A DNA stretch of 64,000 nucleotides from the NCBI GenBank assembly GCA_903828515.1, contig CAIKMD010000002.1, positions 682,001-746,000 of the forward strand. Reading direction: 5' to 3'. Shown in pieces: positions 15,309-62,779 of the stretch. Source of the stretch: an uncultured Rhodospirillales bacterium. GTDB lineage: Bacteria; Pseudomonadota; Alphaproteobacteria; ATCC43930; CGMCC-115725. A model generated the notes under the pieces. That model made no database searches and had not been told where the DNA came from. It saw only the letters and a list, made by a program, of their open reading frames with translations. A program made the translations under genes and the position numbers. The first letter of the stretch is position 1. Each line of letters starts with the position of its first letter.

Positions 15309-15502
15309 GATGAACGTTCCCCCCAGAACAGGGCCCTCATACTGCACCGGCGCTCCGGCGAAATCATTATCGATTCGCGGGATAGGGGCGATGAGCGATG
15401 CCAAAGGTCGTTGCCCACGATGCCGTTTTGCGCCATCCTGTGGCCAAGACACAGCCGCCCCGGTTAAGGGGAACGGCGACGACCAGAGGGAAGGGGACGG
15501 TA

Positions 15503-17395
15503 ATGAAAGACCTGATCAAGCAAGCTCTCGATAATGGCATCTCGCGCCGCAAGCTGATGAAAGGCCTTGGCGCGGCGGGCCTCGGCGCCACCGCGGTGAA
15601 GACGCTTGCCGACACGCTGACACCGGCGACGGCACGCGCCGCCGACGCGGGCCCGGTTAGCGCGACACGGACCATCACCGCCCAGGGCGGCACGCTGTTC
15701 ACTCAGCAGCTCAAAGACGCCGGCGTCGAGTTCATGTTCGCCAATCCGTCGACCGGCGACGGACCGATTTACGACTCCCTCGTCAACGAGCCGGGTATCC
15801 AGCTCATCAAGGGCATCCAGGAAGGCGCGGTGGTCGCCATGGCCGACGGCTATGCGCGGCTGTCGGGCAAGACCGGCGTATGCGGCATCGCCAATGTCGG
15901 TCTGCCCAACGGCATGACCCAACTGGTCAACACCTATAAGGACAACATTCCGGTCCTCATGGTGGTCGCGGCTTTCGGCACCGATGTGGCCGGGCGCGAT
16001 TACGCGCAGGATTACGATCATCAAGAGCCGATGATGTCGCCGATCACCAAATGGTTCTGGATGGCGGAATCGACGCAAGGCATTCCCGACGTGACGCGGC
16101 GCGCGCTCAAATTCGCCGCGACGCCGCCCTCGGGCCCGGTGTTCCTGTCGATCCCGGACAATCTTCTGAAGGCCGAGGCGACCGCCGCGATCATGGATCA
16201 AAAGCGGTTCACCGTCTCGATGAAGGTCCGTCCCGATCATGCGGACGTCATGACCCTCGCCAAGATGCTGATCGAGGCGAAGAACCCGATCATGACGGTC
16301 GGCGACGAAGTCACCATGGGCCAGGCCGAGAAGGACGTGCTCGAACTCGCCGAGCTGCTCGGCCTGACGGTCGCCGGACAAGGCGGCCAGGGCAACTGGT
16401 CGAAGCCGTTCCCGACGCGCCATCCGCTGTTCATCGGCGGCTTCCAGTCGACGATGCGCTTCCCCGGCGAGGTGGACATCCATCTCAACATGGGCGACCA
16501 GGGCGCCGAGCGGCCGATGAAAGGCGCGACGCTGATCTCGATCCGCAGCAACCCGACCGGTCTCGCCCGCGCCAATCCGGTCGATCTCGGCATGGTCTCC
16601 GACATCCGGCTCGCCGCCCGCGACATCATCGACGCGGTCAAGGGCATGGCGACCAAGGAACGCCTGAAGCAGATCGCCGACGATCGCAGCGCGCGCACGC
16701 GCGACTATCACGCCAGCCAGGTCAAGATGCGCGAGATGATCGCCACCGACCTGAACAGCGGCTCCGAGATCAAGATGGAGCGTCTGGCGGTCGAACTCGA
16801 AGCCGGGCTCGAGAAGGACACGATCTATGTGTCGGATTGCGATTCAGGCCGCACGATGGACCCGCTGCTGTCGTGGGGCGGCGCCGACAAGACCTACATC
16901 TCGACCGGGCCGAACATTCTCGGCTGGGGCGTGGCGGCGGCAACCGGCGCCAAGCTCGCGCGGCCGAACCGGCCGGTGGTGTCCTGCGTCGGCGACGGCT
17001 CGATGCTCTTCGGCGGTCCGCAGCCGCTGTGGAGCCAGGCGCGCTACAACGCACCGGTCACCAACATCGTGGTCAACAACCGCAGCTACAACAACGAGCG
17101 CAACCGCATCTGGTCGTTCATCGCCGGTCAGCAGTTCAAGACCGGCAAGGACATGCTCTGCTACAACGGGAGCCCGGACGTCGATTTCGCCAAGGCGGCG
17201 CAAGCCTTCGGCGTCGAAGGCGAGGTGGTGAAGGATCCGGCGCAGCTCAAGCCGGCGATCGCCCGCGCCAAGAAGGCCAATGTCGACGGCCGGCCCTACA
17301 TGCTCGACATCAATGTCGCGCGTGACGGCGTCGGCGCCGCCTCGACCTGGTATCCCGCTTATTCGATCGCCGATCAGCGCACGCGGAAGGTTTGA
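15503..17395 (+). CDS. Twin-arginine-exported thiamine-diphosphate-dependent enzyme (acetolactate synthase/decarboxylase superfamily)
   Basis: 630 residues from ATG 15503, preceded by a gggga-type site. The N-terminus has a Tat motif SRRKLMKGLG, a hydrophobic alanine/glycine stretch and an ARA cleavage site near residue 46. The mature protein has the three-domain IlvB-like build: Pyr domain with the cofactor-activating glutamate (E107, in KGIQEGAVVAMADGYAR), a central domain starting near IIDAVKG, and the PP domain with GDGS at about 497 and the closing NN at 525-526 of the GDG-x-NN thiamine-diphosphate motif. It should therefore be active in 2-oxoacid or C-C bond chemistry, but in the periplasm. 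The next gene, a diheme cytochrome c, starts 2 nt after the stop and may accept electrons from it. Confidence 0.88.
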   Translation: MKDLIKQALDNGISRRKLMKGLGAAGLGATAVKTLADTLTPATARAADAGPVSATRTITAQGGTLFTQQLKDAGVEFMFANPSTGDGPIYDSLVNEPGIQLIKGIQEGAVVAMADGYARLSGKTGVCGIANVGLPNGMTQLVNTYKDNIPVLMVVAAFGTDVAGRDYAQDYDHQEPMMSPITKWFWMAESTQGIPDVTRRALKFAATPPSGPVFLSIPDNLLKAEATAAIMDQKRFTVSMKVRPDHADVMTLAKMLIEAKNPIMTVGDEVTMGQAEKDVLELAELLGLTVAGQGGQGNWSKPFPTRHPLFIGGFQSTMRFPGEVDIHLNMGDQGAERPMKGATLISIRSNPTGLARANPVDLGMVSDIRLAARDIIDAVKGMATKERLKQIADDRSARTRDYHASQVKMREMIATDLNSGSEIKMERLAVELEAGLEKDTIYVSDCDSGRTMDPLLSWGGADKTYISTGPNILGWGVAAATGAKLARPNRPVVSCVGDGSMLFGGPQPLWSQARYNAPVTNIVVNNRSYNNERNRIWSFIAGQQFKTGKDMLCYNGSPDVDFAKAAQAFGVEGEVVKDPAQLKPAIARAKKANVDGRPYMLDINVARDGVGAASTWYPAYSIADQRTRKV

Positions 17396-17397
17396 TC

Positions 17398-18063
17398 ATG
17401 AAAAAGTATCTTGTTGCCGTCGCGTTCGCGGCGTCGGTTCTCGCTATCGTTTCGGTTCACGCTCAAACCTCGCCGCAGGGTCCGGAAGGCGCCGCCCAGG
17501 GTCAGCCGGGGGCCCGCACGCCGGGTCAGGTGCCGACCACGACACCGGCGGCCCAGGCTCCGTCGCCGGCACCCCCGCCGGGCGCGTTCCAGCAAGCCGG
17601 CCCGCCGGGCGCATTGCCCGATGGCGACGGCAAGGAAATCGTCGCCGTCGCCTGCACCCAATGCCACGGCCCGTCGGTCTTCATGCAGTTGCGCATGGGC
17701 GAAGCCGCCTGGAAGAACCAGGTCTATGACATGGTCCTGCGCGGCGCCCAGATCGGCCCCGACGAGATCGGTCGCGCGATCAAATACATGGCGACCGCCT
17801 TCGGTCCCGGCGTACCGTTCCCCGGCCCGCAGGCGCCGGCGGTCACGCTCGCCGACGGCGCGGGCAAGGAGATCGTCGAGGGCGGTTGCGCCCTCTGTCA
17901 CGGGCTCGACCGCATCGCCGTGGCCAAGCGCGCGCCGGATCAATGGAAGCGGATCGTCGATCGCATGGTGTTCTTCGGCTCACCGCTCTCGGATGATCAG
18001 CAGAAGACCGCGCTCGCCTATCTGAGCGCGCAATACGGCGCGCCGCAGACCGCCGCGAAGTAG
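17398..18063 (+). CDS. Diheme c-type cytochrome
   Basis: 221 residues from ATG 17398. Sec signal peptide (MKKYLVAVAFAASVLAIVSVHA), then a Pro/Ala/Gln-rich flexible linker to about residue 73, then two similar heme-binding halves: CTQCH at 86-90 and CALCH at 164-168, each preceded by DG.GKEIV and followed by a W(K)..V..M pattern (WKNQVYDMVLRG and WKRIVDRMVFFG). The halves look like an internal duplication. Start lies 2 nt after the stop of the thiamine-diphosphate enzyme, so the two are translationally linked and both products are periplasmic. A strong hairpin terminator follows at 18076-18122. Confidence 0.9.
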   Translation: MKKYLVAVAFAASVLAIVSVHAQTSPQGPEGAAQGQPGARTPGQVPTTTPAAQAPSPAPPPGAFQQAGPPGALPDGDGKEIVAVACTQCHGPSVFMQLRMGEAAWKNQVYDMVLRGAQIGPDEIGRAIKYMATAFGPGVPFPGPQAPAVTLADGAGKEIVEGGCALCHGLDRIAVAKRAPDQWKRIVDRMVFFGSPLSDDQQKTALAYLSAQYGAPQTAAK

Positions 18064-18075
18064 GGCCGCCGCGAC

Positions 18076-18122
18076 AAAAAAAACGCCCCGCTGGTTCTAT
18101 TTCCCGAACCAGTGGGGCGTTT
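18076..18122 (-). terminator. Rho-independent terminator shared by convergent genes, partly inside a coding end
   Basis: A 17-bp stem (cgccccgctggttc pairing with gaaccagtggggcg, one G-T) with an 8-nt loop, extended by AAA/TTT. On the minus strand it is followed by an eight-T run, a textbook terminator for the gene ending at 18097; its 5' arm forms the last codons of that gene and the stop codon lies at the loop edge. On the plus strand only a short TTT follows, so it may also end the cytochrome transcript less efficiently. Confidence 0.9.
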
Positions 18123-20334
18123 GCTTCGTCCAGGAATCCTTCGGATAGGCAGCGCGCAAGAGATTGTAGGCCTGGCGCGAGATGTCGCCGCGCGGATCGC
18201 CGTATTGCGTCAGCCGGACGACGAGATGAAGCGCTTCGGGTACGCGCGCATCGTCGGGATGCGCCTTCGCCCAACCGATCACGATCGGACCGAGATAACC
18301 GGCGGCGGAGTTCAGCGCCTGGAGCTTCTTGCGCTCCTCGGCCGCCTTGCGCCGGTCGTCGCTGCTCGGGAATGTTGCCGGGCCGAGCCGTCCGGGTAGC
18401 GCCGAGCAATCGTCGCGGCATATCGCGTCGGGCGTTTGCGCGCCGAGATCCTGGCTGAAGAAACCGCTGTCCTTCGACCACCAGCGATCGCCATAGAAGC
18501 CGATCACGTCGCGCTTGTTGGTATAGCCGAGATTCTCCTCGACCCAGGGCTTGGCGGCGGGGAAGCGCAGCAGGAGCAATGCCGCTGCGAAGCGACGCTC
18601 GTCGGCAGCCGTCGCATCGTTGTACTTTTGCCAATCGCCCGCATAGTCCGGAAAGACATCGGCCAAGGCCTTGCCGAGCAGCCTGGCGTCGGCATCGTCC
18701 TGCAACAGCACCGCGCGGGTCCAGGCGGCGAGCGCGACGTCGCGACGGATGTTGGCGGGTAACTGATCCGACAGGGCGATCGGCGTAACGACCGAGAGCG
18801 GAAGCTGAAACGACAGCATCACCGCGGCGTCGGTGTCGAGATAGCGCGGATCGTCGAACAACTCGGTGCGCCAACCGAGATAGGCCGCATAGGATTTCGG
18901 TACGGTCTTGAGCGGCAGCGTCGCTGTGGCGGTGTCGTCGGGATGGCTTTCGTCGAAGAACGGAAAGACGAGTTCCGCCCGCCTCGGCGCGTCGCGCAGG
19001 AAGGCGGCGACATCGGGCGCGACGTGCAGGCGCTCGATCAGCAGCAGATTGCGCACGCCGGGCGGTAGGGTCTTGGCGGCGAGCAGCGTGTCGAGTTCGG
19101 CGCGCGCGGGCGTCACCTCGCCCTTGCCGATCAACAGGCGGACGCGATGCCAGGCCGCCGTGTAGAAACCGGGCGAATTCGGTTCGAGCTTGCGCGACTG
19201 CTCGATTGCCGCCGGCACATTCGGATCGCCGGGCCGCAGGAAGGCGAGTGCGGCGATCAGCCAGGGCAGGGTTGGTGTCGCCTGCCAATGGCGGATCACC
19301 TCGGGCCGCAGGTCGGCCGTCGTCGTCGTGTCGGGCGCCTCGACCGAATTCTCCATCGCGTGAATCCACACGCCGAGATCGGTCCCCAAAACGGCCTTGT
19401 CGGCGGCCAGCAATCTGAAGTCGTGCAGGGCGATGGCAAGATCGTCGGGCAGGACCGGAGCGAGGAGTTGCCGTTCGAGGTCGCGGATGCGTTCGGGGTT
19501 CGTCGTGAAGGCGAGCAGCGCGCTCAGTTTCGCGAGATCGCGATCCTTGCCGGCATCGCCGGCGGCGGCGAGGTCCTGCTGCGCGCGCGCAATGGCGTTC
19601 GGAGTCTTCGTCGCGACGGCATCATGCACCGCGGCGCGCGCGGTAAGGTAGCGCGCCGAAACTGCCCAGGGCGATGCGGCATCAGCGGCGATCGCGGCGA
19701 AGCGTTTGCGCGCCTCGGCATAATTGAGCCGATAGAAATAAGCGGCGGCGGTCTGATAGGCGCGGTCGGCCTTGAGCCAGGCGGGCGCGTCGGCAGGGGC
19801 GTCCGCCGGCAGGGCGGTAGGGGTGTTGCAGTTGGCGAACACCGCGTCCTGGCCGGTGATCCAGGCCTTGACCCCTGGATCGTCGGCGCCGTGGGTGGCG
19901 ATGCGCGCCTTCAGCGTCGCGGCGGCGGTGTCGAAGGCGGAAGGAAAGCAGTTGAGGGTTTCGTCGAACTCGCCGGCCTTGCGATAGGCGCCGATGCTGA
20001 CCTTGTCCTTGACGATGGTCGCCCGCGCGTCGAGCCAAGATTGAGAGAAGTCCACATTTGAAGGGTTCGGGAGATCGCAGCATGGCGTCATTAATTGCTT
20101 CACCTGATCGTCGGTGAAGCCTTGGCCGAGCAGGATGCGATAGGCGGCATAGAGCCGGTTCTCGGTGAAGCTCGGGCGCAGGATGCCGAGCTGGCCCTTG
20201 AAATAGGTGATCCCGTTATCGGGTTCCTGGCCGGAATGGCTGAAGAAGCGGAGTTGCGGCAGGAACGGTCCCGAGGCGAAAGCGGGCAGGCCCATGGTGA
20301 CGAGGGCGGTTAGCGCGAGGGCGAAGCGAATCAT
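18097..20334 (-). CDS. Large exported hypothetical protein with helical-repeat (TPR-like) regions
   Basis: 745 residues from ATG 20334. Signal peptide MIRFALALTALVTMGLPAFA, then an N-terminal region with CCDLPNPSNVDFSQSW and two further cysteines, and a long series of alpha-helical segments with TPR-like spacing (AYQTAAAYFYRLNYAEARKRFAAIAADAASPWAVSARYLTARAAV; AAWHRVRLLIGKGEVTPARAELDTLL). The tail has YGDRWWSKDSGFFSQDL and HLVVRLTQYGDPRGDISRQAYNLLRAAYPKDSW. No catalytic motif is recognised. It overlaps the upstream DUF3142 gene by 4 nt (ATGA), which ties the two functionally. It may be a periplasmic scaffold or a processing protein; this is inference. Confidence 0.75.
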   Translation of the reverse strand: MIRFALALTALVTMGLPAFASGPFLPQLRFFSHSGQEPDNGITYFKGQLGILRPSFTENRLYAAYRILLGQGFTDDQVKQLMTPCCDLPNPSNVDFSQSWLDARATIVKDKVSIGAYRKAGEFDETLNCFPSAFDTAAATLKARIATHGADDPGVKAWITGQDAVFANCNTPTALPADAPADAPAWLKADRAYQTAAAYFYRLNYAEARKRFAAIAADAASPWAVSARYLTARAAVHDAVATKTPNAIARAQQDLAAAGDAGKDRDLAKLSALLAFTTNPERIRDLERQLLAPVLPDDLAIALHDFRLLAADKAVLGTDLGVWIHAMENSVEAPDTTTTADLRPEVIRHWQATPTLPWLIAALAFLRPGDPNVPAAIEQSRKLEPNSPGFYTAAWHRVRLLIGKGEVTPARAELDTLLAAKTLPPGVRNLLLIERLHVAPDVAAFLRDAPRRAELVFPFFDESHPDDTATATLPLKTVPKSYAAYLGWRTELFDDPRYLDTDAAVMLSFQLPLSVVTPIALSDQLPANIRRDVALAAWTRAVLLQDDADARLLGKALADVFPDYAGDWQKYNDATAADERRFAAALLLLRFPAAKPWVEENLGYTNKRDVIGFYGDRWWSKDSGFFSQDLGAQTPDAICRDDCSALPGRLGPATFPSSDDRRKAAEERKKLQALNSAAGYLGPIVIGWAKAHPDDARVPEALHLVVRLTQYGDPRGDISRQAYNLLRAAYPKDSWTKQTPHWFGK

Positions 20335-21255: not shown

Positions 21256-22500
21256 ATGGATGGCATGACGAAAGTCGGCGACAAATACAGCGTGGGCGGC
21301 GTTCTGATGGACCGCCCGTTCAAGATCCGACGCCTCGGCCATTTCGGCTACAACGTCTACAAGATGGACGAGGCGATGCACTTCTATAAGAACCTCCTGG
21401 GGTTCCGCATCACCGACACGCTCGACTTCGCGCGCGTCCGGCCCGACCCCAAGGTTTTCGAAGGCATTTCGGCCGTCGGCTATTTCACCACCCACGGCAC
21501 CGATCATCATTCCTTCGTGCTCTTCCCGAAGCACGCGCTCGACCGGATGGCCTCGGGCAGCGCCGGCGGCCACAAGACCAACGCCGAAGTGACGACCAAC
21601 CAGATCACCTGGCAGGTCGGCACGTTGCGCGAGGTCGGCGAGGGCATCGATTACTTCAAGTCGATCGGCATCAACCCCGGCCGCATCGGCCGCGACGTGC
21701 CGGGCTCGAACTGGCATTCCTATCCGTCCGATCCCGAAGGCCATACCAACGAGATCTATTACGGCATCGAGCAGATCGGCTGGAACCTCCAGGCGAAGCC
21801 GCCGGGTGTCCGCAAGCGCGGCTTCCACGACAAGCCGGAACTGCCGCAAATCTCCGAGTATCAGGAGATCGAGGCGTTCAAGGCCGAGGGCATGGACATG
21901 AACGCGGGTTACCGCGATGTCGAGAAGGGACCGTTCAAATACGATGTCGGTGGCATCATGCTGCCGCGCCCGTTCAAGGTCATCAAGATCGGACCGGTGC
22001 GCCTGTTCATCGACGACATGGAAAAGGCGCTCGCCTTCTATACGAAGGTCATGGGCCTGCGCATCACCGAAGAGGTGGTCTATGACGGCCATCGCTGCGT
22101 GTTTCTGCGCTGCAACACCGAACATCACTCGCTCGCGCTTTACCCCAAGGCGTTGCGCGCGAAGCTCGGCCTGTCGCCGCATACGAGCTGCATGAGCTTC
22201 GGCAACCAGGTCGGCGACTATCAGCAGCTACGCGACGCCGTCGATTTCCTCAAGGCCGAAGGCGCCACGATCAAATACCTGCCGCCGGAACTCTTCCCCG
22301 GCATCGACTACTCGGCCTTCGCGGTCGATCCCGACGGCCACCTGATCCAGCTCTATTACTACATGGAGCAATTGGGCTGGGACGCGAAGGTCCGCTCGAA
22401 AGAGCAGCGCCGCAAGGTCGACAACGCCAAATGGCCCCTGGCGGTCGATGCGATGAGCGACAGCTACGACGGCGAGACGTTGTTGGGGCCGCTGGGGTAA
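21256..22500 (+). CDS. Two-domain VOC protein, extradiol catechol dioxygenase-like
   Basis: 414 residues from ATG 21256, which has aggagga 7 nt upstream. Two vicinal-oxygen-chelate modules: domain 1 (about 20-200) with LGHFGYNV, DHHSFVLFPK and GHTNEIYYG; domain 2 (about 235-390) with IGPVRLFI, EHHSLALYPK and GHLIQLYYY. Domain 1 keeps the His, His, Glu metal triad; domain 2 has Pro and Gln in place of the first His and the Glu. The usual type I extradiol dioxygenase has its iron in the C-terminal domain, so the arrangement is reversed. It probably acts on a catechol-like or related compound in the cytoplasm. A hairpin terminator follows at 22525. Confidence 0.85.
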   Translation: MDGMTKVGDKYSVGGVLMDRPFKIRRLGHFGYNVYKMDEAMHFYKNLLGFRITDTLDFARVRPDPKVFEGISAVGYFTTHGTDHHSFVLFPKHALDRMASGSAGGHKTNAEVTTNQITWQVGTLREVGEGIDYFKSIGINPGRIGRDVPGSNWHSYPSDPEGHTNEIYYGIEQIGWNLQAKPPGVRKRGFHDKPELPQISEYQEIEAFKAEGMDMNAGYRDVEKGPFKYDVGGIMLPRPFKVIKIGPVRLFIDDMEKALAFYTKVMGLRITEEVVYDGHRCVFLRCNTEHHSLALYPKALRAKLGLSPHTSCMSFGNQVGDYQQLRDAVDFLKAEGATIKYLPPELFPGIDYSAFAVDPDGHLIQLYYYMEQLGWDAKVRSKEQRRKVDNAKWPLAVDAMSDSYDGETLLGPLG

Positions 22501-58607: not shown

Positions 58608-60242
58608 CTAAGGCACGATCTCTAATTTATAGATCACGGCGTGGTGGTTGTTGCCGGCCCAAAAGCTCGGCACAGCCGTCGTGTTGTCGATGAGGATGCG
58701 TCTTATGTTCGTGGGCGCGGGCAACAGGTACTCGACGGCGGCGCCGGTTGCCGGATCGATGCGTTGCACCCGGTCGGAATTCATGCCGCCCGACCACAGC
58801 ATCCCGTCCTTGTCGATCGACGCGTCATAGGGGGCGGTCCACGGCGTCGGCAGCGCGAATTCGCGAAAGCTTTCGCTCTTGATGTCGAACAGGCCGAGCT
58901 GGTTGGCGGCGAATTCCGCGAACCACAGCCGGCCTTGATCGTCCATCATGCCGCGGCGCGGGCGCGAGCCCCTTGTCGGCGTCGGATAGATCGTCGCGAT
59001 GCCGGTCTGTGCATCGATGCGGCCGATATTCTCGTCGCCGAAATCCATGAAATAGAGGTTGTTGGCCGCATCGACGGTCATGCCATAGGGCGCGTGGTCG
59101 TGGCCGGTCGGCATGTTCCGGAACGGATCGATGGTTTCGACCACGCCGGTCTTGAGGTCGAGCCGGATCACCGATTGCTGGGCGACCATGTTCGACCACA
59201 CCTTGCCGTCGATGCGCGAGCCTGCCGGCATCACCATCGATTGCTGGGTCGTGTCGTTGTCGAGCGATTTCGGCATCGGCCACATCTTGAATTTTTTCGT
59301 CTTCGGGTCGAACTCGGCGAGTCCGGCCTGGAACATCGTCGCGAGCCAATAATGCCCGTTCGCGTCGGTTTCGAGATCGAGCGCGCCGGTCGGCGAGCCG
59401 CGCTTGCGCGTGGGATAGGGATATTCGGTCACCTTGCCGGTGCGCGGATCGAGCATGCCGAGCTTCTGATCGCCGAATTCGGAAAACCAGATCAGGCCGG
59501 CTTTGTCCACGCGGACGTCATGCGGCGCGATGGTCGGGCGCGGCAGCGCGTAGCTCGTGACGATTGCATGCGTGGCGGCGCCCTTGGGACGCGGCAGGGT
59601 TTGCAGCTTATAGGTCCAGGTCGAGCCTGTGCTCAGATTGATCGTGGCGAGGTAATCCGCCGCACGGCGCATCAGTTCGGGCTTCGGCTGGCGTTGTACC
59701 AGGCGTTTTTGTGGATGCAGCGTCGTGCTGTTATTGGCGTAATTCATCATCCGGGTGAGGACCGAGACGAATTCGTCGGCGTTATGCGTCGAGCGGACGA
59801 TGCGTTCGAGCGTGTGGCAGCTCATGCATTCGAGCAGCGTCTTCTTCTGGGGGTCGGTGCCCGGAATGCTCATCAGCCATTCGGTGTTGGTGAGCTGCGC
59901 CGCGAGGTCGTGCGCGGGGACGAGCGCGATGTCGACATCGGCGGTCTCGCCGGTCGCGATCTTGCCCGAGACGGCGCCATCGATCGCGTAGCCGACCGCG
60001 CGGATGGACAGGAACCAGGTGCCGGGCGACAACCGGCCGGCCGGAAAGCGATAGATACCCTCGGCATTGCTGACGACGGTGACGCTGATCGTCGAGTCCG
60101 GGCGCTGCGCGGTGACCAGCACGCCTTCCATCTCGCCCTCGGCGGCGGAGGTGACATGCCCGGTCAAAACCGGCGGCGCCTCGGCGGCATGAGCGGCGGC
60201 GCCGACGATCAGAAAACCAGCGACGAGGATCGCGCGGATCAT
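58608..60242 (-). CDS. Heme-c protein with Ig-like domain and Vgb-like beta-propeller
   Basis: 544 residues. Signal peptide MIRAILVAGFLIVGAAAHA; a carboxypeptidase-regulatory-like Ig domain (about 22-112; LTGHVTSAAEGEMEGVLVTAQR to GETADVDIALVP); a short heme-c domain with C139-MSC-H143 (LLECMSCHTLER); then a beta-propeller of virginiamycin-B-lyase type, with repeated blades (PHDVRVDKAGLIWFSEFGDQKLGMLDPRTGKVTEY; PYGMTVDAANNLYFMDFGDENIGRIDAQTGIATIY; RGMMDDQGRLWFAEFAANQLGLFD). A periplasmic redox protein; not a streptogramin lyase, since the heme domain is fused. Fifth gene of the multicopper oxidase operon; its start overlaps the preceding stop by 4 nt. Confidence 0.85.
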   Translation of the reverse strand: MIRAILVAGFLIVGAAAHAAEAPPVLTGHVTSAAEGEMEGVLVTAQRPDSTISVTVVSNAEGIYRFPAGRLSPGTWFLSIRAVGYAIDGAVSGKIATGETADVDIALVPAHDLAAQLTNTEWLMSIPGTDPQKKTLLECMSCHTLERIVRSTHNADEFVSVLTRMMNYANNSTTLHPQKRLVQRQPKPELMRRAADYLATINLSTGSTWTYKLQTLPRPKGAATHAIVTSYALPRPTIAPHDVRVDKAGLIWFSEFGDQKLGMLDPRTGKVTEYPYPTRKRGSPTGALDLETDANGHYWLATMFQAGLAEFDPKTKKFKMWPMPKSLDNDTTQQSMVMPAGSRIDGKVWSNMVAQQSVIRLDLKTGVVETIDPFRNMPTGHDHAPYGMTVDAANNLYFMDFGDENIGRIDAQTGIATIYPTPTRGSRPRRGMMDDQGRLWFAEFAANQLGLFDIKSESFREFALPTPWTAPYDASIDKDGMLWSGGMNSDRVQRIDPATGAAVEYLLPAPTNIRRILIDNTTAVPSFWAGNNHHAVIYKLEIVP

Positions 60243-60939: not shown

Positions 60940-61403
60940 ATCCCGAACCCCCTTATGTTGTTGAGGATATGGCCGACCAGAAAGGCCCACCACACGGTCA
61001 GGGTCAGAAACAGCGTGAGGATACGGCGCGTCGCGGCATGTTCGGCGGCGAGCGGCTGGCGCCAGTAATACCAATAGGCCGGCAGAAGGGCGGCGCCGAT
61101 GGCGACGAAATGCTCTTTCAGTTCGAACAGGCCGAGCGGCGTGTTGAGATGGATCTGCTCGAGCAAGGGCCGGATGCCGATCCGATAGGTCGGATAGATG
61201 ATCGCGCCGAGTGACGCGGTGACCAGATAAAGCACGATGATCGCGTTGCTGTAGACGGCCGAGCGGACGCCGCGCGCATTGGCGACGAAGTTGCGTTGCG
61301 CGCCGGCCTTGACCGGCCACCAGAGGCTCAAGGCCTGATGCGTGACCGCACCGATCAGCGTGACCGCGCAGAGCGAATGAATGATGAGCAGAAAGGTGAT
61401 CAT
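60936..61403 (-). CDS. Four-helix integral membrane protein of multicopper oxidase operon
   Basis: 155 residues from ATG 61403. Four membrane helices with histidines at helix positions: TFLLIIHSLCAVTLIGAVTHQALSLWW, AVYSNAIIVLYLVTASLGAIIYP, FELKEHFVAIGAALLPAYWYYW and FLTLTVWWAFLVGHILNN. The two histidines in helix 1 and one each in helices 3 and 4 would suit b-heme ligation, which is inference. A quinol-linked membrane cytochrome is one possibility. It overlaps the multicopper oxidase stop and the next gene's start by 4 nt each. Confidence 0.75.
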   Translation of the reverse strand: MITFLLIIHSLCAVTLIGAVTHQALSLWWPVKAGAQRNFVANARGVRSAVYSNAIIVLYLVTASLGAIIYPTYRIGIRPLLEQIHLNTPLGLFELKEHFVAIGAALLPAYWYYWRQPLAAEHAATRRILTLFLTLTVWWAFLVGHILNNIRGFGI

Positions 61404-62779
61404 GTGTATTTCACCAAGGTCATGAAGCCGAAATCCTGATGGTCCTGCATGTGGCAGTGGAAAAGGGCGGGGCCGGGATTGTCGGCGATGAAATCGATCT
61501 CGGCGTCGCGCCGGCCGGGCAGGGCGACGACGTCCTTCGTCAGCCCCGACATCGGCTTGCCGAGGAAATTCGTCACCTCGAAGCTGTGGCGATGGAGATG
61601 GATCGGGTGCATGTCGCCGCTGAGATTGTGCATCACAAGGCGATAACGCTTGCCGCGCGTCACCATGATCGGATCGGCGTCAGGCCATGATTTGCCGTTG
61701 ATGGTCCAGCGATTGAAGCCGCCGCGCCCGCCGGGAATCTTCTCGAACAGCAATTCGATCCGCGCGTCAGGCTCGGGCGCCGGCGCGGGGTTGCCGAAGA
61801 TCGTGTAGTCCCAGTTCATCTTCATCGGCGCCATCGACCACTGCGGCGCGCCGGTGGCACCGGCATATTCGATCACCACGCCCATCCCGCTCGCACGTTC
61901 GGCATCGTTGGTCGAGCCCATGATCCAGATGCCCGGCTGATCCATCGTCACCACGGCGTCGATCCGCTCGCCCGGCGCGAGGAAGAGCATGTCGAGCGTC
62001 TGCGGATTCGGCACCGGATTGCCGTCCATCGCCAGCACGGTGAAGCGGTGATGCGGCAACGCGATCATCGCATCCGCCGTCGCGCTCGCGTTCAGCAGGC
62101 GGAACAGCACGCGCTGCCCCCTCTTGACCCGGATCGGTGCACTGTGACCCAGCGCCTTGCCGTTGAACGAGGCGGATTTGTAGGTCACTTCCATCCCGTT
62201 ATCGGCCGGCGGACCCTTGCGGATATCCTGTAGGCTGACGAATTGTGGTTCCCAATGATGCATCGCGATCGTCACTTCGCGGTCATAGCGCGCGGGGTCG
62301 CTGACCGGATCGACGATGAAGAACCCGTATTGCCCGCCATAGAGGCTCTTGGTCAGGTCGCGCCCCGCCATCGCGTGGGTGTGATACCAGCGGGTACCGG
62401 CGGGCCCGGCGACGAAGCTGACCGTTTGAGTGGCGCCCGCGTCGACCATGGGCGAGCCTTCTTCCATCGCGCCGTCGGCCTCGGCCGGAACATGCAGTCC
62501 GTGCCAATGCACGATGTCGTCGCCGCGGCTTTTGTTGGCGATCTCGATGGTGACGGTTTTGCCGTCGCGGACCCGCAAGAGCGGACCGGGCACGGTGCCG
62601 TTATAGCCGACCGTTCGGATGACGCGGCCGGGCGCGATTTCGAGCGACAGCGGCGCGATGGTCAGGCGGAAATCGGGCTTCGGCCGGCGTTCCTGGGCGA
62701 AGGCAGGTCCCGCCAGCGGCAAACTCGCAGCACCGGCCAGAAATAGCCGCCGATCGAGATGAGGTCCCGGCCGTCGCAT
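61400..62779 (-). CDS. Twin-arginine-exported multicopper oxidase (laccase-like)
   Basis: 459 residues. Tat signal HLDRRLFLAGAASLPLAGPAFA (DRRLFLAG motif). Three cupredoxin domains with the full copper set: HWHGLH (near 103), WYHTHA, HPIHLHRHSF and the C-terminal HCHMQDHQDFGF. The T1 axial position (Cys+10) is Phe, not Met as in CueO, which normally raises the redox potential. No methionine-rich insert is seen, so copper oxidation as the main role is less likely than oxidation of phenols or of a protein partner. First gene of a five-gene unit, each junction overlapping by 4 nt. It is divergent from the CorC-type gene. Confidence 0.92.
   Translation of the reverse strand: MRRPGPHLDRRLFLAGAASLPLAGPAFAQERRPKPDFRLTIAPLSLEIAPGRVIRTVGYNGTVPGPLLRVRDGKTVTIEIANKSRGDDIVHWHGLHVPAEADGAMEEGSPMVDAGATQTVSFVAGPAGTRWYHTHAMAGRDLTKSLYGGQYGFFIVDPVSDPARYDREVTIAMHHWEPQFVSLQDIRKGPPADNGMEVTYKSASFNGKALGHSAPIRVKRGQRVLFRLLNASATADAMIALPHHRFTVLAMDGNPVPNPQTLDMLFLAPGERIDAVVTMDQPGIWIMGSTNDAERASGMGVVIEYAGATGAPQWSMAPMKMNWDYTIFGNPAPAPEPDARIELLFEKIPGGRGGFNRWTINGKSWPDADPIMVTRGKRYRLVMHNLSGDMHPIHLHRHSFEVTNFLGKPMSGLTKDVVALPGRRDAEIDFIADNPGPALFHCHMQDHQDFGFMTLVKYT

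Follow-up and report, generated by a model that had tools for sequence, protein, structure and literature searches.

The window analysed here, a 64,000-nucleotide stretch of DNA from an uncultured Rhodospirillales bacterium, contains a gene for a thiamine diphosphate (ThDP) enzyme with a candidate twin-arginine (Tat) signal, directly followed by a gene for a secreted diheme cytochrome c. We consider it rather probable that these two genes form a self-contained periplasmic oxidoreductase pair, in which the ThDP enzyme is linked to cytochrome c without FAD. The substrate, the export, the oxidative reaction and the role of the cytochrome as direct acceptor are what we infer from sequence comparison. 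The presence of such a pairing in two separate branches of these enzymes suggests that extracytoplasmic substrate oxidation is carried out by a kind of enzyme not described so far. The features are:

15503 to 17395, plus strand: group A Tat-type ThDP enzyme of 630 aa, with Pfam TPP_enzyme_N, TPP_enzyme_M and TPP_enzyme_C domains; closest PDB matches BbmA and benzoylformate decarboxylase
15503 to 15646, plus strand: putative twin-arginine signal region, aa 1-48, with R15-R16 at 15545-15550; RR invariant in 14 relatives, 15.9 bits against TIGR01409
15821 to 15823, plus strand: E107, predicted catalytic ThDP-activating Glu; invariant in 14 of 14, aligns with the Glu of PoxB and IlvI
16991 to 17080, plus strand: ThDP/Mg motif, from GDG (497-499) to NN (525-526); invariant in 14 of 14
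17398 to 18063, plus strand: secreted diheme cytochrome c of 221 aa, with an internally duplicated SorB-like haem domain; the SorB match falls in two stretches
17653 to 17667, plus strand: haem site 1, CTQCH (aa 86-90), with putative Met ligand M112
17887 to 17901, plus strand: haem site 2, CALCH (aa 164-168), with putative Met ligand M190
21256 to 22500, plus strand: two-domain VOC/extradiol-dioxygenase-like protein of uncertain role in the system; this neighbour is conserved in the sister species (L043) too

Judged by its domains and motifs, the window enzyme is a member of the benzoylformate decarboxylase/acetolactate synthase superfamily. It scores 79.8, 42.9 and 99.4 bits against TPP_enzyme_N, TPP_enzyme_M and TPP_enzyme_C, respectively, all above the cut-offs, and it carries both the catalytic Glu and the GDG...NN metal motif. 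The full ThDP motif set claimed in a sequence-only reading of this DNA is therefore present, with E107, G497-D498-G499 and N525-N526, as well as R15-R16, all invariant across the 14 aligned relatives, which come from three groups (A, B and C). An alternative in-frame ATG lies upstream at 15398; homology begins only at 15503. At the family level, the enzyme scores below the cut-offs of both the NCBIfam benzoylformate decarboxylase model (PRK07092; 205.5 bits, cut-off 493) and the acetolactate synthase large subunit model (TIGR00118; 184.9 bits, cut-off 538). AlphaFold2 models computed with three-row alignments had a pLDDT of 37 for the enzyme and 46 for the cytochrome, too low for them to be used.

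The ThDP stop codon ends at 17395 and the cytochrome begins at 17398, so that the secreted cytochrome with two CxxCH sites is found 2 nt behind the ThDP gene, just as had been read. Its N-terminus is signal-peptide-like, the CxxCH sites lie at aa 86-90 and 164-168, and each half has a Trp at 15 and a Met at 22 residues past the haem His in 5 of 5 relatives. The signal-peptide-like N-terminus, the two CxxCH sites and the Met at H+22 in both domains (5/5) place it among the c-type cytochromes, and the conservation of this Met in both halves suggests that the group A cytochrome holds two His/Met haems, with the Met residues as the predicted ligands. Its family signal is that of SorB and of the quinohaemoprotein amine dehydrogenase (QHNDH) haem domains, and its score against the NCBIfam SorB model (NF052246), 52.2 bits over two stretches, lies below the cut-off of 93. 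SorAB sulfite dehydrogenase and QHNDH, whose SorB and alpha subunit haem domains resemble those of the window cytochrome, are also alike in logic in that an exported enzyme works with a cytochrome. However, their enzymes are molybdenum or quinone enzymes, whereas the partner in the window is a ThDP enzyme and the SorB-like domains number two in tandem. CxxCH motifs are also seen elsewhere in the window, where the minus-strand intervals 58608-60242 and 61400-62722 cover a virginiamycin-B-lyase-like propeller protein with a carboxypeptidase-regulatory-like domain and one CxxCH, near a multicopper oxidase, and near one group A pair (L038, 11598-13775), where a CxxCH protein has a weak carboxypeptidase-regulatory-like match.

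The window enzyme is probably carried out of the cytoplasm by the Tat pathway. The twin-arginine signal had been called convincing. The RR is kept across groups A, B and C, but the window protein falls just under the cut-off of 16.7 of TIGR01409, a model of the S/TRRxFLK-type motif and its h-region. That shortfall is the one point in favour of an N-terminus that is not a functional Tat signal and an enzyme that stays cytoplasmic, a reading to which we give very little credence. Against it, the RR is invariant in all three groups and the cut-off is exceeded by one group B member (L041, 23.4 bits) and by group C members, which range from 23 to 25 bits (for example, L047 with 25.4 and L065 with 23.8). 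Furthermore, an N-terminal extension of this kind is confined to groups A, B and C among the relatives compared, and TatC is encoded in the window's own genome. Apparent RR matches in some non-Tat rows lie upstream of the true start and these rows were judged by eye to be non-Tat.

We explored the conservation of the pair in overlapping searches of samples amounting to about 1,800 genomes, so the frequencies given here are rough. Group A, the close group of the window enzyme, comprises five loci with 64-73% identity, and the relatives come from a sister species (L001/L043), an Acetobacteraceae metagenome-assembled genome (L002) and, within the same family, two further genera (L037 and L038). 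All five loci keep the Tat motif and a directly downstream diheme cytochrome, the two genes overlapping by 1 nt at one extreme and lying 4 nt apart at the other. Broad phylum samples yielded no further group A members, and the plasmid database PLSDB, queried with the window protein, returned only relatives of about 30% identity or less. The four members of group B (L039-L042; 36-38% identity) keep the Tat motif and have no adjacent cytochrome (absent in 4/4), indicating that the link between Tat motif and cytochrome is not universal. Behind one group B Tat-ThDP gene (L042, 7372-8850) lies a gene for a molybdopterin oxidoreductase, which may be the redox partner instead.

A second Tat-bearing lineage, group C, emerged from weaker matches that align from about query residue 10. 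Its members are about 650 aa long and share about 27% identity with the window protein, and in the first set a small secreted cytochrome lies directly behind the enzyme in all 11 distinct members. This partner is a monohaem cytochrome unrelated to that of group A. Two group C members (L047 and L049), both paired, are encoded in the window's own genome; thus, the statement that this superfamily normally acts in the cytoplasm is right for the superfamily as a whole, but the window enzyme is not an isolated exception. The group C pair of Caballeronia zhejiangensis (Betaproteobacteria), annotated as a 'thiamine pyrophosphate-binding protein' followed by a 'c-type cytochrome', has a diheme cytochrome, and Novosphingobium sp. 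KACC 22771 has two consecutive cytochrome genes. A further alphaproteobacterial family contributed 40 distinct full-length group C genes, every one with the Tat motif and 35 with the cytochrome; of the other five, three truly lack it and two are cut by sequence ends. One genus of this family has up to ten group C genes per genome, and one contig (L139, 3320-12956; G787 contig 132) carries four Tat-ThDP/cytochrome pairs in tandem. A Tat-bearing ThDP enzyme without a cytochrome (L131; G783 contig 53) is followed by genes whose products resemble VOC/glyoxalase-fold proteins, similar to the VOC protein near the window pair.

The relatives that lack the Tat motif present a different picture. No cytochrome was found beside any of about 75 non-Tat relatives, nor beside the five non-Tat paralogues in the further alphaproteobacterial family, and the cytosolic sister enzymes retrieved alongside group C by profile lack both the Tat motif and the cytochrome. 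A Fisher test, run with 77 non-Tat rows for the 75 listed, yields a p value that serves as description only, as the rows are related. Among plasmid-borne cytosolic relatives of group C, three (L108, L109 and L111) adjoin aldehyde dehydrogenase genes and two (L110 and L112) do not. Where it occurs, the aldehyde dehydrogenase stands in place of the cytochrome, as though one oxidant had been swapped for another.

The proposed coupling would have been refuted had most homologues lacked the signal peptide and the cytochrome neighbour. Instead, beside the five complete group A loci, the Tat motif is present in 51 of 51 group C enzymes and the cytochrome at 46 of 49 testable group C loci. Since groups A and C both keep the Tat motif and the cytochrome, functional coupling of the ThDP enzyme to the cytochrome is well supported. 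The pairing itself most likely arose twice. Specifically, a tree of 74 sequences separates groups A and B together from group C, each of the two with full support, so that the Tat signal requires two changes. Constraining all Tat sequences to be monophyletic was rejected (AU test, 27 rows; p-AU 2e-5, lnL difference 93.7). The cytochromes are also of different families, SorB/QHNDH-like in group A and of the cbb3-subunit-III/cytochrome c type in group C, and it is this combination of separate ThDP branches with different cytochrome families that points to two origins. These results bear on the alternative that the cytochrome shares no more than a transcript with the enzyme and works in general electron transport or for a different enzyme. 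Enzymes with no cytochrome next door, four in group B and three in group C, would fit such an arrangement. However, pairing is seen at 51 of the 54 testable A and C loci, the cytochromes were drawn from different families in the two independent lineages, and enzyme distances track cytochrome distances in 43 group C pairs (Mantel r=0.64, against at most 0.19 in permutations), as shared descent would partly lead one to expect. We therefore regard mere co-transcription as unlikely.

A FAD-binding middle domain, which the sequence-only reading had proposed to look for, is not evident, as the segment typical of the FAD-containing enzymes PoxB and IlvI is absent. Specifically, in an alignment with Escherichia coli PoxB and IlvI, their common G-rich loop and F-x-x-R segment are shortened or replaced in the window enzyme, and the position of PoxB F465 is Asn. 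The segment contacts FAD in PoxB and IlvI, and together with F465 it characterises the PoxB-type FAD-dependent ThDP oxidases. The missing segment indicates that the enzyme is not a classical flavin 2-oxoacid oxidase. The earlier proposal of a periplasmic 2-oxoacid oxidase or aldehyde-forming enzyme feeding a cytochrome is partly supported, with the coupling itself well backed and the enzyme a putative electron donor. PoxB is a pyruvate:quinone oxidoreductase that uses ThDP and FAD, is cytoplasmic and peripheral, and delivers electrons to quinone. The window enzyme resembles it in belonging to the ThDP superfamily and in probably feeding the respiratory chain, and differs from it in having a Tat signal, a cytochrome c partner and no FAD segment. 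A PoxB-like, FAD-containing 2-oxoacid oxidase relocated to the periplasm would account for the TPP_enzyme_M domain and for a ThDP enzyme that feeds the respiratory chain as PoxB does, but the altered loop, the Asn at the F465 position and the absence of POX models among the best 25 NCBIfam matches led us to reject it as highly improbable. Our search of the open-access literature found nothing useful on the FAD residues of PoxB and nothing relevant on BbmA.

On the likeliest reading of these comparisons, the active site is of decarboxylase type and the neighbouring cytochrome oxidises either its intermediate or its product. The ThDP enzyme would fold and take up ThDP-Mg in the cytoplasm before export by Tat, and would then attack a 2-oxoacid, possibly an aromatic one resembling an arylglyoxylate, or another carbonyl compound of that sort. 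Decarboxylation would leave an electron-rich ThDP enamine; this enamine, or an aldehyde derived from it, would be oxidised without FAD, with the adjacent cytochrome c as acceptor, and the diheme cytochrome could accept the two electrons singly and hand them to the respiratory chain. To our knowledge, direct electron transfer from ThDP to haem has no precedent. If this direct mechanism is right, one-electron oxidation of a ThDP intermediate would be shared with pyruvate:ferredoxin oxidoreductase, a cytoplasmic enzyme that uses iron-sulphur clusters and CoA and has a domain architecture unlike that of the window enzyme.

The main competing explanation is that the enzyme acts in the periplasm without oxidation, as a decarboxylase or carboligase similar to benzoylformate decarboxylase that yields an aldehyde or acyloin, and that an exported dehydrogenase encoded elsewhere oxidises this product by way of the cytochrome. 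Among solved structures, benzoylformate decarboxylase (MdlC; PDB 1bfd) and BbmA (8x3x) score best against groups A and C, they share the N/M/C domain order and the ThDP motifs with the window enzyme, and the nearest well-characterised relatives are in general non-oxidative decarboxylases and carboligases, benzoylformate decarboxylase itself being non-redox. The missing FAD segment is also congruent with such chemistry, as is the pairing of some cytosolic relatives with an aldehyde dehydrogenase, since this implies that an aldehyde is formed. MdlC and BbmA are only distant relatives and differ from the window enzyme, which has a Tat signal and a cytochrome partner. Against the non-oxidative explanation, neither a dehydrogenase nor any other third gene recurs beside the pairs; when a third partner was sought in 14 loci, no gene family appeared in more than four of them. 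Pairs also occur in tandem arrays, and a ThDP-cytochrome pair stands alone in housekeeping surroundings, between ssb and gyrA, in both the window's species (L047, 6864-9193) and its sister species (L114, 6551-8882). Together, the lack of a recurrent third gene and this isolated position indicate that two genes seem sufficient. We thus hold the non-oxidative explanation to be possible but doubtful, and favour oxidation by the paired cytochrome.

We found no described exported ThDP enzyme or ThDP-cytochrome pair in the open-access literature; one chance match (PMC10080006) was unrelated. Tentatively, and with somewhat less assurance than for the window pair itself, we propose a new class of 2-oxoacid (or aldehyde):cytochrome c oxidoreductases that are periplasmic and free of flavin. 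In these, a c-type cytochrome reserved for the enzyme would take electrons straight from the ThDP intermediate. Cytosolic ThDP enzymes would have given rise to the class on at least two occasions, and some lineages would have expanded it to about ten enzymes per genome, most with a cytochrome of their own. Teaching usually places ThDP chemistry in the cytoplasm and has the electrons pass to NAD by way of lipoamide, to quinone by way of FAD, or to iron-sulphur clusters. If the proposal is true, a ThDP enzyme that is exported and served by a dedicated cytochrome would provide an additional exit route, oxidation of 2-oxoacids outside the inner membrane would make substrate uptake unnecessary, and many genes now labelled 'acetolactate synthase-like' would be re-annotated. 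Whether a ThDP enamine can reduce a c-type haem directly also becomes a testable question.

As to the substrate, VOC/extradiol-type dioxygenases and other catabolic genes near group A pairs weakly hint at an aromatic compound. Finally, downstream of the cytochrome, the window encodes on the minus strand (18097-20334) a 745-aa protein that has a signal-peptide-like N-terminus and is without a Pfam match.
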